NCBI RefSeq assembly: GCF_033097485.1
Contig: NZ_AP028634.1
Span: 1,231,126-1,295,125, forward strand
From: Pyrofollis japonicus
Lineage (GTDB): Archaea > Thermoproteota > Thermoprotei_A > Sulfolobales > Pyrodictiaceae
Direction of reading: 5' to 3'
Length of the DNA stretch: 64,000 nucleotides
Numbering within the stretch: the first letter of the stretch is position 1; each line of letters starts with the position of its first letter. The notes under the pieces were generated by a model, which was given only the letters and a program-made list of their open reading frames with translations, was not told the origin of the DNA and did no database searches. This document shows, in pieces, positions 2,061 through 59,445 of this stretch. A program made the translations under genes and the position numbers.

Positions 2061-4209
2061 CAGGTGTGAGGTATCCAACAGCGTCTCTCATAATACTCAG
2101 CATTGTGTGTGAAATCGCGTAGCCGACGAGGTAGACTAGGGGCATAGAGGCGAGCCACGCCACTAGCAAGATTATAATGTCTAAGACGAGTATCTGAACG
2201 TCAGTGAATCCTATGGCTCTTAGTACACCGATTTCCCGGAGCCTGCCCGCAATATCCACTATGACTAGCACGGCTAGGCCAACCACTCCTACAAATAGTA
2301 TGGAAGCATCTATGATTGAGAGGAATACGGATAAGAACCGCATATTGCTATCCTGCATCCTCAGGAGATCGGCCTTAGTCCTTGGCTTCGAGGCTGGTAT
2401 ACCGTTTTCAATGAGCACCCGCTTAATCCTGAGCCCCACTTGCAAGGAGTCCCTATCAGCCTTATAGTAGAGGAGGAAAGAAGTAGGATGCACTATTTGG
2501 AGGTAGTCGCCTCTATCAATGAACACTACGAGGCCATTATCGAAATGATCCGTTACTATGCCAGTAACCCTGAACACATATGTGCCACGGGTAGTGTTTA
2601 GCGTTATGACATCTCCGATACCTATTCCAAACTCCTCGGAAACGGTGACAGTTATTGCTGCTTCTCCTCTATGCTGAGGCCATCTTCCCGAGAGGAGGCG
2701 TGGCCCAAGGCTCCAATTACCAACTATGCAGCTCATTAATGATACTTCCTTCCCATTAATCTTGGCTCTTCTCCAGCTAAAATCCCAAACCTCTATGCTC
2801 TTCACCGATGGAGCGCTTAAGGCCTTATCCACGACATCGTCTAGCCTCGTAGAAGACGCGGCAAAGAGGAGCTTGCCGTCAAACCCATAGCCCTTTATCT
2901 CCTCCTTAATAATGTTAAGCCCTCTAAGGCTCATAGGTATGGATGCTGTGGCTCCCCAGGATACTGCGAGAAAGAGCACCAGGAACGCCGAAAACCACGG
3001 CCTAGAAGCCATTCTCCTCAGAGAGTATACTAGGAGTAGTTTCCCTCCATGCAAGGATTTGAGCTTGATTATTCCCCCGGTAAGCCCGGTGAATCTCAGC
3101 GCCTGTCCTGTTGGGACTTGGTAGGCTAACATAGGAGGAAGCACGGTGGCCGCTAGTATCAGCGCTAATGCTATTAGCCCAGTCTCTCCTAGGGTCCCCC
3201 AGTCTATGGTGAAGGGGTACTTCTGCATTAAAAGCTCCATTACCTGGGATCCTTGGGCTTCTCTTGCACCCATGCTTACTAGCTTTTCTGCTACCGGCAC
3301 CGATGCTGTTAACCCAGCAGCAACTCCTATTGCTCCTCTTATCATATTGTATCCAGCATAATAGAGAATAACACTACCCTTACTGAATCCCAGTGCCTTG
3401 AGTACGCCTATCTCTCTCACGTTTCTCTCTAAGAGGCTCGCTTCACTACCAGCTATAAGGAAGCCTGCAATAACTAGTGCTATGCCAGTAAAGATCTCAA
3501 GGGAGTTCGCCATACTCTTCAAAGGCGCAGTGGCAGGATTGCTTCGCCCGCTTTGTACGAAAACTGTACGAATACTTCCCCCCTCGCTACGTACAAGGTT
3601 TTCAATCTCGCTAGCTATCTTGCTAGGATCTGTACCAGGAGCTACTATGAATAGGATCTGCTCCTTCCTACCCTTAGCCTTCTCGATCAAAGACTCGTTG
3701 ACGAACAAAGTAATGTCTGTTCCAGATACTGAGACTATCCCTTTGGCTATTCCGGTTATTCTGATACTACCGAGGCCCGATACTACTACTATGTCTCCAG
3801 GCCTCGTAATAGGTTGGCTATTTGTCACATACTCTAGGACACCGGGTACCCCCTTCGAAATATAGTAGCTCATAGGATAAGAATCATCCGGGTTATAAAC
3901 AAGCGTAATACTTATTGGCGTAGAGTCGAAATAGCCTATGGTATCCACGGCCATTATAAGTTTTGCTCTCTCAACACCCTCTATACCCCTAACCTTATCT
4001 AGCACAGAATACGGAATATGCCCCTCAACAACAACGCTACCAACCTCATAAACCCAAGCCTTGCCAGCTAAGCTAAGGCTGTAGGAGGCAGCCAGCTTTA
4101 TCGAAGCAAGCCCCACAACCCCCACGAACAAGACCATGATAACGGCGAACGACTCCAGCTTTCTCCTTGAAACAGCTCTCCACGACGCCTTGATCAACAT
4201 ACCAGCCAT
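2023..4209 (-). CDS. FtsX/MacB-type ABC transporter permease, apparently frameshifted near the C terminus
   Basis: The 728-residue frame has the duplicated FtsX plan: an N-terminal membrane helix (about residues 18-40), a large extracytoplasmic domain, a cluster of membrane helices (about 235-370), then a second helix, a second soluble domain and helices near the end. The motifs EIGVLKALGFSKGS and EIGVLRAIGFTDVQ mark the two FtsX repeats. The frame stops after an untypical tail, while the expected last helix and basic tail lie in another frame down to 1937. One missing base near 2050-2060 would join them. The gene is first in an operon with the ATPase at 1252-1923. Confidence 0.8.
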   Translation of the reverse strand: MAGMLIKASWRAVSRRKLESFAVIMVLFVGVVGLASIKLAASYSLSLAGKAWVYEVGSVVVEGHIPYSVLDKVRGIEGVERAKLIMAVDTIGYFDSTPISITLVYNPDDSYPMSYYISKGVPGVLEYVTNSQPITRPGDIVVVSGLGSIRITGIAKGIVSVSGTDITLFVNESLIEKAKGRKEQILFIVAPGTDPSKIASEIENLVRSEGGSIRTVFVQSGRSNPATAPLKSMANSLEIFTGIALVIAGFLIAGSEASLLERNVREIGVLKALGFSKGSVILYYAGYNMIRGAIGVAAGLTASVPVAEKLVSMGAREAQGSQVMELLMQKYPFTIDWGTLGETGLIALALILAATVLPPMLAYQVPTGQALRFTGLTGGIIKLKSLHGGKLLLVYSLRRMASRPWFSAFLVLFLAVSWGATASIPMSLRGLNIIKEEIKGYGFDGKLLFAASSTRLDDVVDKALSAPSVKSIEVWDFSWRRAKINGKEVSLMSCIVGNWSLGPRLLSGRWPQHRGEAAITVTVSEEFGIGIGDVITLNTTRGTYVFRVTGIVTDHFDNGLVVFIDRGDYLQIVHPTSFLLYYKADRDSLQVGLRIKRVLIENGIPASKPRTKADLLRMQDSNMRFLSVFLSIIDASILFVGVVGLAVLVIVDIAGRLREIGVLRAIGFTDVQILVLDIIILLVAWLASMPLVYLVGYAISHTMLSIMRDAVGYLTPVPRCWMSREQPG

Positions 4210-41002: not shown

Positions 41003-41839
41003 GTGAGCCCTGGCTTGAAGATATTCGTATCCGTTGATGCAGAGGGCATGCCCTGGGCTCCGAGCAAGTACATGATGTCTCCCGGACAGCCACTCTACAA
41101 CGAGCTTAGACGCATCATGACTCTCGTAACCAATGTTGTTGCCGAAGAAGCTTTCAAACATGGTGTTGAAGAGGTTATTGTTGCCGACAGTCATGGAGCT
41201 ATGGTGAATATTGATCCCTTTGAACTCGATAAACGAGTTAGCCTTATTCGCGGATTCCCCCGGCCCATGGCAATGATAAGCCAGGCTACGGGCGTAGATG
41301 CTGCATTCTTCCTAGGGTATCATTCTAGTCCCCAGCTTGGAGGCGTACTGGGCCACACCTATTCCGGGCGAATAGTACAACGAGTAAGGCTCAGCGAGTG
41401 CGATGCCGCCACAGAGTACCTTCTAAACACATATGCTCTCGGAGAACTAGGTGTACCCGTCGCCTTAGTAGCAGGCGACGCAAAGCTAAGGGAACATGTA
41501 GAGAAACACACACCCTGGGCGCGCTTCATTGCCCTAAAAGATACTGTCTCCTATTACGCTGACCACACCCCTCCCTGGAACAGACTTGAACACGAACTTA
41601 GGGAAGCAGTCAAAGAAGCCATTAATGCAACGAAAAACAGGGAAGTGAAGCCATTGAAACCCAAGGAGCCATGGATAGAGGTTGAACTCAAGAGGCCATT
41701 CCACGCCGACATAGCGGAACTATTCCCCTGCGTCGAGAGAATAGACGGAGTAACAATCCGGCTAACATGCAACAACTATATAGAGAACTACAAGCTATTT
41801 GAAGGAATAGTAATAGCAGCCTATAGCTTCGAAAAATAA
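41003..41839 (+). CDS. M55-family D-aminopeptidase (DppA-like)
   Basis: A 278-residue protein. Metal-binding motifs of the M55 family are visible: VDAEGMP near the start, VADSHGAM, FFLGYHSSP and LGHTYSG. The family hydrolyses short D-amino-acid peptides or related peptides and forms decameric rings in bacteria. A GTG start at 41003 is used; a TTG at 41012 is also possible. It is a single gene beside the large non-coding inverted repeat. Confidence 0.88.
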   Translation: MSPGLKIFVSVDAEGMPWAPSKYMMSPGQPLYNELRRIMTLVTNVVAEEAFKHGVEEVIVADSHGAMVNIDPFELDKRVSLIRGFPRPMAMISQATGVDAAFFLGYHSSPQLGGVLGHTYSGRIVQRVRLSECDAATEYLLNTYALGELGVPVALVAGDAKLREHVEKHTPWARFIALKDTVSYYADHTPPWNRLEHELREAVKEAINATKNREVKPLKPKEPWIEVELKRPFHADIAELFPCVERIDGVTIRLTCNNYIENYKLFEGIVIAAYSFEK

Positions 41840-42059
41840 AGAACCATTACGATTCACAAGAACATCAGAATAGCACACCACAAAGATACCGATGACCCCC
41901 AAGCCTTAAACAGTGTCCAAACAAGAAAACAACTAGACCGGGCCACCCAGGCCCAGGGAGAACACACCCCGCGGGACAAGCCTCTCCCGCGGATAAAAGG
42001 GGAGGCAGAGTCCCCATCCGCGCGGGAGGGGCAGGCCTCGAGGATCCTCAGAGCCCGTG

Positions 42060-42080
42060 GGGGAGGGGTAGCCCCTCCCC
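42060..42080. repeat. GC palindrome, left copy
   Basis: Nine-base arms GGGGAGGGG and CCCCTCCCC surround TAG. The same 21 bases recur exactly at 42847-42867 in the other arm of the large inverted repeat. It could be a protein site or a very stable hairpin. Confidence 0.85.
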
Positions 42081-42439
42081 CGGGGCCACGGGGTCGGTCA
42101 CCTCCCTGGGCAACGTGGGCCCACCCAGGTGCTAGGAAGCCGGTATGGGGGTGAGACCCGGGTAGTTGGAGGAGGAGATGATACCTGGCTGCGGCTCTGG
42201 GCCTTAGGGTAGGGAGTCTCTAGCTAACCCATACACTGCACCCGCGTGGCGGGTGACGGGGGTCCTGCGGCCTCCCGGTCCCCGAGGCAGCTACGGTAGC
42301 CCAGGGCCCCGCAGGCAAGCGGCTCTGCCGCTGGCTAAGGGCCCGGGGCGGACAACGAATAATCAATAGCAATAATTGCAAAAATAATACAATACTGGGG
42401 GCCCGGCACGGCCACCCGCCTTGGCGGCTAAGGAGGGGC

Positions 42440-42493
42440 ATATAATACAAGAGAATATTAGATAGATATAGCTTATAAATGTAAATATATTAC
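42440..42493. other. AT-rich centre of the large inverted repeat
   Basis: About 54 bases are almost all A and T (for example AATATTAGATAGATATAG and ATAAATGTAAATATATTA) and separate the GC-rich arms. This would melt easily, as a duplex-unwinding element of an origin does. It could equally hold divergent promoters that transcribe both arms; TATA-like strings occur on both strands. Confidence 0.75.
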
Positions 42494-42846
42494 GCCCCTC
42501 CGAGGCTGCCAAGGAGGCGGCTGTGCCCGGGCTCCTCTCGAGCCGCCCCGCAGGGCTCTTAGCACAACGCGGTAGAGTCGCTTGCTTGCGGCTTATTGTG
42601 CCGCAGAGGGGCCTGGGCACGGGGCTGTCTCGGGGACTAATTAGGGGCCCAAAGGGCCCCTCTAGCTCCCGCTACGTGGGCGTGGTGTATGGGTTAGCTA
42701 GAGACTCCCTGCCCTAAGGCTCATGGGCTGCAGCTGGGTATCGTCTTCTCCTCCAATTGCTCTGGGTCGCCCCATGCTGGCTTTCTGGCGCCTGGGTGCG
42801 TGCCTGCGTGGTTCCAGGAGGAGGTGATCAAGACCTCTTGGCTTCG

Positions 42847-42867
42847 GGGGAGGGGTAGCCCCTCCCC
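42847..42867. repeat. GC palindrome, right copy
   Basis: Identical to the palindrome at 42060-42080, at the mirror position in the right arm. Confidence 0.85.
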
Positions 42868-43116
42868 ACGGGCTCTCCGGGCCCGGGAGGCCTGCCCCTC
42901 GGGGGCCGGCCGCTCTGCCTCCCAGTGAGAAGGGGTTCTCCCTGGGCCTGGGTGGTTTTCCTTAATAGTTATTGTTTTTGCCTGGGTTTTGTACTATATA
43001 GTTATGTGCTGTTATCCTCGGCTTAGATAATACGTCTGTATCGGTCTTTCTGAGGAGTACTATCTCGTGTCTTAGTGTATGTCCTCTGTTTTCCTTGCGG
43101 CTTTGATTCTTTGTTT

Positions 43117-43554
43117 CTACTTTGAAAGGGTGACTATTTCCTCTGTTCCTGTGCTATTAACTTTCAGACTGTTCTGATTGTCTTCTTGGATAATCTTGCC
43201 GAGTATTCCTACTATTATCTTTATTTCTTTGAGCGATATTGTGTAGAAGTATGAGCCTTTGGAGTATAGTTGGTCTATTTCTGTAACTGTTTGTAGGAGT
43301 GTTCTCAAACACTCATCGTCAGCTAGGCATTCTCTTATTCCTTCTTCCCCCATCCCGTGGTATATGAACAGGTACGTCTCGAGCGTCGCCATTTCAAGAC
43401 CAACAATGAGGGCTACTTCGTTGTCTGATAGTTCTTTATCGATGCAGAGGTCTCCGGCTTCGCGGCATACTATCTCTGCTAATTTCCTGGGCTCCATTGA
43501 TCCTATTGGCTCGTCATATGAGTCGTGCACTTGGCACACCCTTTTTTCTTCCAA
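43117..43554 (-). CDS. Hypothetical acidic helical protein
   Basis: A 145-residue protein with several predicted helices and four to five cysteines spread in the first two thirds (VCREAGDLC, RECLADDECLR). I recognise no family. The surrounding DNA (43.0-44.4 kb) is AT-richer than its neighbours, and the gene lies 160 bases from the edge of the inverted repeat. Codon use looks acceptable and the frame is continuous, but the function is unknown. Confidence 0.5.
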   Translation of the reverse strand: MEEKRVCQVHDSYDEPIGSMEPRKLAEIVCREAGDLCIDKELSDNEVALIVGLEMATLETYLFIYHGMGEEGIRECLADDECLRTLLQTVTEIDQLYSKGSYFYTISLKEIKIIVGILGKIIQEDNQNSLKVNSTGTEEIVTLSK

Positions 43555-44552: not shown

Positions 44553-45554
44553 TCATCGCTGCTTTATTGGTATGATTAGCTCTGCTTTCCTGCCCTCTAT
44601 TATTCCGTGCCCTTGTATCTGGAGCATGGCGTTGTCCTCTTTGGGCTGTACGTATAGGTCTAGTATTCTTGTAACTTGGTGGCCTAGCTCCTTTATCCGG
44701 TCTACTCCACGGTACTGTGGCTTAGCTAGTGCTGCAGCAATTGCTACTACCTCGTGGCCTCGCTGCTCCAGCAGCTTTAGTAGCGCTATTGCTGTGCCCC
44801 CGGTAGAGACAGTGTCATCTACTATTGCTACGCGTTTGTACTCGTTACTGAGCCCGTATACGTAGTATTTGCCCTCCTCGTAGCCGGAGGCGTAGCTTAT
44901 CTCGATTCCTGGCGCTTCGTATTGCCGCTTCCTAACAATTATCATAGGCTTTGCGAGCTGTTGTGCGACGAGAGTCCCTAGGGGGAGACCAAGTGCTTCT
45001 GGAACCATTACCGCGTCTGGCTTTAGGGGCTCTAGCTGCTCGGCCAGGGTGTCGGCGAGTAGCTGTAGGAGGAGCGGGTTTATTGGCGGAATGTTGTCAG
45101 TTATTGGGTTGATAACGTATAGGTATTGGTCTAGTCCGGCGTACCCCTTTCTTGGGACGACACGGGCTTCTCTGAAGGCTTCAAGTACTAGTTGCCAGAG
45201 GGCTTCGCTACGTCCCTCGGCAACCGGGTTGTGGAAGCACCTCTTCGCCCCGGTATGGCATACTGGGCCACTCGGGACTCCCTCGTATATAAGCGAGTCG
45301 AGGTCGCAGTCGGCAACAACCCGTAGCACTCTTATCGTGTTCCCGCTTGTCTCCCCCTTCATCCAGAGGCGTTGACGGCTCCTAGAGTAAAACCAGGCAT
45401 AGCCGGTCTCGAGCGTCTTTGCTACTGCTTCTCGGCTAGCATATGCCTGCATGAGCGGCTTCTTCGAGACAGCATCGATCACAGTGACGGGAACTAGCCC
45501 ACCCATCTTCTCGTAGTCGATTTCGTCGGGGCTGCGGATGACATGTAGCGGCAT
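44553..45554 (-). CDS. hisI: HisI (phosphoribosyl-AMP cyclohydrolase) fused to a phosphoribosyltransferase domain
   Basis: A 333-residue protein. Residues about 20-112 are HisI: MQAYASREAVAKTLETG, WMKGETSGNTI, the metal-site ADCDLDSL (C83) and CHTGAKRCF (C99 and C106). It opens the ring of phosphoribosyl-AMP in histidine synthesis. Residues about 140-333 form a type I phosphoribosyltransferase domain with the PRPP loop AIVDDTVSTGGT (244-255). HisI alone is about 110-130 residues. The second domain may be a purine or AICAR-related salvage enzyme; this is inferred. It is the last gene of the operon, nine bases after hisH. Confidence 0.9.
   Translation of the reverse strand: MPLHVIRSPDEIDYEKMGGLVPVTVIDAVSKKPLMQAYASREAVAKTLETGYAWFYSRSRQRLWMKGETSGNTIRVLRVVADCDLDSLIYEGVPSGPVCHTGAKRCFHNPVAEGRSEALWQLVLEAFREARVVPRKGYAGLDQYLYVINPITDNIPPINPLLLQLLADTLAEQLEPLKPDAVMVPEALGLPLGTLVAQQLAKPMIIVRKRQYEAPGIEISYASGYEEGKYYVYGLSNEYKRVAIVDDTVSTGGTAIALLKLLEQRGHEVVAIAAALAKPQYRGVDRIKELGHQVTRILDLYVQPKEDNAMLQIQGHGIIEGRKAELIIPIKQR

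Positions 45555-59367: not shown

Positions 59368-59445
<78 letters not shown>

Follow-up and report, generated by a model that had tools for sequence, protein, structure and literature searches.

A 1-kb imperfect inverted repeat in the chromosome of Pyrofollis japonicus is likely to be the gene for a rod-shaped noncoding RNA made as a single transcript. The repeat lies within the 64,000-nucleotide stretch of DNA analyzed here (the window), to which coordinates refer unless another locus is named. Transcription would begin from a TATA-type promoter at about position 41900 and proceed on the forward strand to about 42960, and the transcript would fold back over its whole length to yield an imperfectly paired rod with an A/U-rich closing loop. 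Selection would then maintain the paired shape rather than the sequence. From the sequence features described below, we infer that this RNA is transcribed and stable in vivo. A large RNA was among the readings in the original prediction, which envisaged one structured RNA per arm. The RNA itself is supported by our findings, but one transcript is predicted to pass through both arms instead of two.

The inverted repeat is near-continuous between arm ends at about 41940 and 42957, and it occurs at the place originally described, with far more symmetry than chance would produce. Under symmetric scoring the self-alignment reaches 638, compared with a maximum of 84 for 100 dinucleotide shuffles, and the repeat is recovered by self-BLAST with an E value of 2e-89. 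Two of the three arm pairings that had been quoted hold, namely 41943-41963 with 42935-42955 (21/21) and 42201-42236 with 42685-42720 (35/36), whereas the third, 42060-42080 with 42847-42867, is a direct repeat (21/21) whose inverted match reaches only 18/21. Each of these 21-base copies is itself a GGGGAGGGG-TAG-CCCCTCCCC hairpin, and the self-complementary twins could pair across the rod or form local hairpins, with a four-way switch being possible. The arms are GC-rich, as had been noted, but the center (42440-42493), which had been called nearly pure AT, is 83% AT. A second AT-rich stretch (42354-42397, 77% AT) is present only in the left arm. As also anticipated, the open reading frame inside the element matched no protein family. 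An assembly artefact had been named as a possible source of the symmetry; this was rejected on two grounds, as the arms agree at only ~73% and independent genomes carry their own versions of the element.

Only one copy of the element is present in the 2.005-Mb genome of its host. The 16S rRNA of this genome marks the organism as an archaeon, while genome size, gene content and relatives suggest Pyrodictiaceae and hence a hyperthermophile. No structural analogue turned up elsewhere in the 0.86 Mb of this genome that were scanned. The scan did pick up further inverted repeats, namely the 16S stem, inverted tRNA genes and divergent KaiC-like paralogues, as well as one weak pair at 1563857/1567907.

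Mismatches between the arms indicate the level at which pairing matters. A G·U and an A·C mismatch are indistinguishable for a DNA structure, but they are distinguishable for an RNA. When arm mismatches that differ by a transition are read on the strand defined by the promoter (see below), G·U outnumbers A·C by 45:7 in the window (p = 7e-8) and by 75:39 in a genome of the same genus, G004 (p = 1e-3). The ratio of 18:12 in G013, which represents another genus of the family, is not significant alone, and the processing stem of 16S rRNA from the same genome as the window, intended as a positive control, gives 6:6 from few cases. There is no DNA-level reason for a preference of G·U over A·C on one strand, and it therefore counts for RNA. 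Predicted fold energies for the window element are -794 kcal/mol for the sense strand and -662 kcal/mol for the antisense strand, compared with -500 +/- 10 kcal/mol for shuffles. Structured RNAs typically have A-rich unpaired bases, and unpaired bases on the promoter-defined strand are 35-47% A and 17-22% T in the three genomes. This bias is opposite to the T-rich loops expected of C-to-T decay on the sense strand.

The comparison set consists of three complete copies (window, G004 and G013) and one contig end (G002). A search of related genomes for the arms had been suggested, and small BLAST matches led to equivalent elements of 1.9 kb in G004 (L033, 6275-8171) and 0.67 kb in G013 (L034, 4061-4725), a three-fold variation in size. 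Each of these is its own end-to-end inverted repeat, with self-alignment scores of 1046 versus a shuffle maximum of 132 for G004 and 510 versus 78 for G013. Within each of the three genomes the arms match each other over their length, whereas between genomes the alignable primary sequence amounts to a core of only ~70 nucleotides. In the terminal loop of the G013 element (L034, 4367-4400), two A-rich stretches flank an additional strong hairpin, GGAGCCAGCCTCTCGGGGGAGAGGTTGGCTCC, that is not seen in the window copy. The G002 contig (G002:C184, L064) breaks off at base 3694, where an element of this kind has only just begun. Drafts can therefore break here, and absences in draft assemblies mean little; draft archaeal genomes probably contain too few long self-complementary loci.

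No sequence match was found in G007, G011 or G014, relatives whose genomes are complete or nearly so, and G005 gave only chance-level sequence matches, with no comparable inverted repeat in a structural scan of 1.58 of its 1.62 Mb. The RNA is therefore dispensable in the family. Apart from L021 of G013, the weak matches L010-L024 lie in no inverted repeat. Among 214 genomes of the order, 211 lack the right core even when up to three mismatches are permitted, as do 397 of 398 genomes sampled from the phylum. The left core is present in 2 of the 214 genomes of the order when sought as an ungapped pattern, which misses the G004 copy with its length change of one to two bases. IMG/VR holds no exact match to the core, and blastn revealed no match to the element in phages or plasmids.

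The conserved core lies near the base of the rod and consists of a 14-bp helix (H3) between two internal loops. Over the three genomes H3 is 97.6% paired, with three double-sided and three one-sided pair changes, while controls in which the partner strand was slid by one to three columns are 38-67% paired. Column shuffles equalled the observed covariation in 32 of 500 trials, with three sequences counted. These observations are supportive, but not proof, of a core helix that may have been kept by compensatory change. The four strands of the two loops are perfect palindromes of 8-10 nucleotides in each of the three genomes. In loop 1 CCGCGCGG faces GGCCGGCC, and in loop 2 GAGGATCCTC faces CCGGGCCCGG, so that each strand is self-complementary while opposing strands pair poorly with one another. 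Three of the palindromes do not vary; the remaining one is CCGCGCGG, CCCGCGCGGG or CCCGCGGG depending on the genome, and each version is palindromic. For the loop 2 strands, self-duplexes are predicted at -17.4 and -23.9 kcal/mol, versus -5.6 kcal/mol for pairing across the loop. Palindromes of at least 8 nucleotides show an enrichment of only about twofold in the elements of the window and G013, and none in the G004 element overall; what stands out is not this enrichment but the constant place of the palindromes within the core. The difference between opposite loop strands is the same in two genera, and gene conversion between the arms thus cannot explain the core.

A conserved promoter motif, CCCCYAASYCTTAAA, precedes the same end of the elements by 29-32 nucleotides. 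The G013 counterpart, CCCCTAACCCTTAAA, lies 29 nucleotides before the first paired G, exactly as does CCCCCAAGCCTTAAA in the window, and G004 and G002 share the counterpart CCCCTAACTCTTAAA, with a spacing of 32 nucleotides in G004. The promoter pattern has one match in the window, where 0.01 would be expected by chance. The strand it marks is the one that carries GAGGATCCTC in its 5′ arm, and the sequence just after the rod is T-rich in the window, in G013 and in G004. In G004 the element is inverted relative to the neighbors that it shares with the window, a small ORF and a HisI-phosphoribosyltransferase (HisI-PRT) gene, and the promoter has turned along with it. Coordinates of the parts are collected in Table 1.

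Table 1. Parts of the predicted RNA gene and the adjoining ORF, in window coordinates
Feature	Position	Strand	Observation
Conserved BRE/TATA-like promoter CCCCCAAGCCTTAAA	41896..41910	+	29 nt before first paired base
Predicted rod-shaped noncoding RNA, ~1.02 kb	41940..42957	+	Sense fold energy; relatives L033, L034
Basal helix H1, 5′ strand	41943..41963	+	21/21 complementary to 42935-42955
Palindrome CCGCGCGG, internal loop 1, 5′ side	42018..42025	+	CCCGCGCGGG in G013, CCCGCGGG in G004
Core helix H3, 5′ strand GAGGGGCAGGCCTC	42026..42039	+	97.6% of cells paired
Palindrome GAGGATCCTC, internal loop 2, 5′ side	42040..42049	+	Invariant, 3 genomes
AT-rich unpaired bulge, 5′ arm	42354..42397	+	77% AT; unpaired bases overall 44% A, 18% T
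AT-rich terminal loop region (center of the original prediction)	42440..42493	+	83% AT, 27 A / 18 T
Palindrome CCGGGCCCGG, internal loop 2, 3′ side	42877..42886	+	Invariant, 3 genomes; unlike opposite GAGGATCCTC
Core helix H3, 3′ strand GAGGCCTGCCCCTC	42887..42900	+	Pairs with 42026-42039
Palindrome GGCCGGCC, internal loop 1, 3′ side	42904..42911	+	Invariant, 3 genomes
Basal helix H1, 3′ strand	42935..42955	+	Partner of 41943-41963
T-rich stretch TTTTCCTTAATAGTTATTGTTTTTGC, candidate archaeal terminator	42956..42981	+	Directly after rod
Small ORF, no known family	43117..43554	-	Homologues adjoin element in G004, G002

The genes near the element include nothing that points to a function for the RNA. 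Homologues of the small ORF are found at L033 8387-8776 (G004) and L064 3044-3436 (G002), where the element has the opposite orientation. This ORF has three copies in its own genome, is found within the family only in this genus, and adjoins the rod element in all three readable genomes of the genus. The gene at 44553-45554 on the reverse strand encodes a fusion of HisI (phosphoribosyl-AMP cyclohydrolase) and phosphoribosyltransferase domains at the end of a histidine gene cluster, and its homologue in G004 is at L033 11927-12934. Beside the G004 element are tandem genes for similar small proteins (L033 4569-5063 and 5431-5922) that have no equivalent at the window locus, and one of these two proteins has a sub-threshold MazE-antitoxin-like match.

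Three other explanations for the inverted repeat were weighed. The arms might be inverted, duplicated genes for two related RNAs transcribed divergently from AT-rich central promoters. The center is AT-rich, the arms align as copies at 73-74%, and each arm when folded singly, as had been proposed for a check, does better than its own shuffles (z = -3.0 and -3.9). However, the stabilization of the whole rod relative to shuffles (-794 versus -500 kcal/mol) is far greater, the sequence of the center is not conserved between species, and the only conserved promoter sits beyond the left end of the element. Moreover, the G·U bias runs on one strand through both arms, and the loop palindromes are specific to their arms and conserved between genera rather than common to both arms. 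Divergent transcription from a shared center is very improbable given these observations. The element might also act as DNA, for example as a replication origin, a cruciform, or a site for partition or condensation. Long symmetric arms flanking an AT-rich stretch, occurrence as a single genomic copy, and conserved palindromic decamers that could be protein sites would all suit such a role. Nevertheless, Cdc6/Orc1 genes are located at 379 and 1608 kb of the genome and the element at 1273 kb, such that no orc1/cdc6 gene adjoins it and the nearest is about 335 kb away; the original remark that cdc6 is not nearby thus extends to a distance of 300 kb. Because a cdc6 gene does not adjoin every archaeal origin, this distance only lowers the standing of an origin. 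A GC-skew check, which had been suggested, gave local values of +0.03 to +0.06 with no switch or sustained change. The GC-rich arms would be hard to melt, the element is missing from the near-complete relative G005, and neither the one-strand G·U preference nor the A-rich loops have a DNA-level reason. There is accordingly only a slim chance that this is a DNA element, and the origin in particular is disfavored.

A neutral remnant is the remaining alternative, wherein an inverted duplication or non-autonomous mobile element is kept symmetric by gene conversion and strand-biased C-to-T changes generate G·T mismatches. Its patchy presence, three-fold size variation, different neighbors in G013 and flipped orientation relative to its neighbors in G004 are what such a history might leave. 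Yet core and promoter are conserved across genera, the promoter is located outside the arms, and the asymmetry of the loop strands resists gene conversion. Likewise, the loops are A-rich, whereas C-to-T decay should make them T-rich. A transposable element or MITE would be expected in multiple copies, but its own genome contains just one, and no direct repeats were seen on reading the sequences that flank its ends. We consider it quite unlikely that the element is a neutral remnant, although a mobile element may have been the evolutionary origin of the inverted repeat. A gene for one rod-shaped RNA is the explanation we favor.

Comparison with known RNAs did not place this candidate in an existing family. 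At the gathering score, Rfam 15 identifies only a tRNA (59371-59445) in the window, and a permissive search of 41500-43500 returned only chance-level matches. The Rfam searches gave no rRNA or tRNA match inside the element, and the family models for OLE, ROOL and GOLLD do not match it. The predicted RNA does resemble OLE, ROOL and GOLLD in being a long noncoding RNA with conserved palindromic segments, one of which switches from palindrome to palindrome (PMC12286853). For OLE and GOLLD, such changes were taken as evidence of intermolecular contacts in a cryo-EM study (PMC12286853). The element likewise has self-complementary segments that are conserved or covary as palindromes, four of them in three genomes. 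However, these bacterial RNAs are branched, whereas the window RNA is a single predicted archaeal rod that has no match in Rfam and is poorly conserved in sequence. The processing stems of archaeal pre-rRNA are also long, GC-rich, imperfect helices, and the 16S stem was found in our scan of the same genome, but such stems are ~140 bp and flank rRNA, while the element encloses only an A/U-rich loop. Viroids, delta-like agents and obelisks are rod-like self-complementary RNAs of a size similar to the window rod, and replicating RNAs of this sort need both polarities to be folded. The window element is instead chromosomal and has a promoter, and its two polarities do not fold equally (-794 versus -662 kcal/mol; G·U 45:7, a bias on one strand only). 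Eukaryotic long hairpin RNAs that feed RNA interference are inverted-repeat transcripts that turn over rapidly in sequence while keeping the double strand. The window element differs in having a conserved core near its base, and to our knowledge archaea have no RNA interference pathway of this type.

The change of one loop strand from palindrome to palindrome suggests intermolecular self-pairing, as occurs in OLE, GOLLD and ROOL complexes. By analogy, it is possible, though doubtful, that copies of the RNA join by strand exchange at their palindromic loops to build a dimeric or polymeric scaffold. A 10-nucleotide strand of loop 2 and its twin from a second copy would form about one helical turn. 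On geometric grounds, loops 1 and 2 would point in different directions, and joining at both would give chains. Judged from the sequence, the anatomy would support no reading more specific than a self-assembling scaffold. The full proposal, a new archaeal RNA class in which a selected kilobase rod joins to others through palindromic loops as a self-assembling scaffold in a probable hyperthermophile, is rather unlikely to hold in its entirety. In the literature searched, we found no archaeal, cellular, genome-encoded hairpin RNA of kilobase length that is selected for its paired shape, and searches on Pyrodictium RNA, long hairpin RNA and archaeal inverted repeats revealed nothing relevant. The RNA class appears to be undescribed in what could be searched, and its newness would lie in the class and not in the mechanism. 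If transcribed, the element would specify a large RNA that belongs to no catalogued family, and its palindromic loops would offer a built-in test of whether RNA-only assembly, recently observed for large RNAs of bacteria, extends to archaea.
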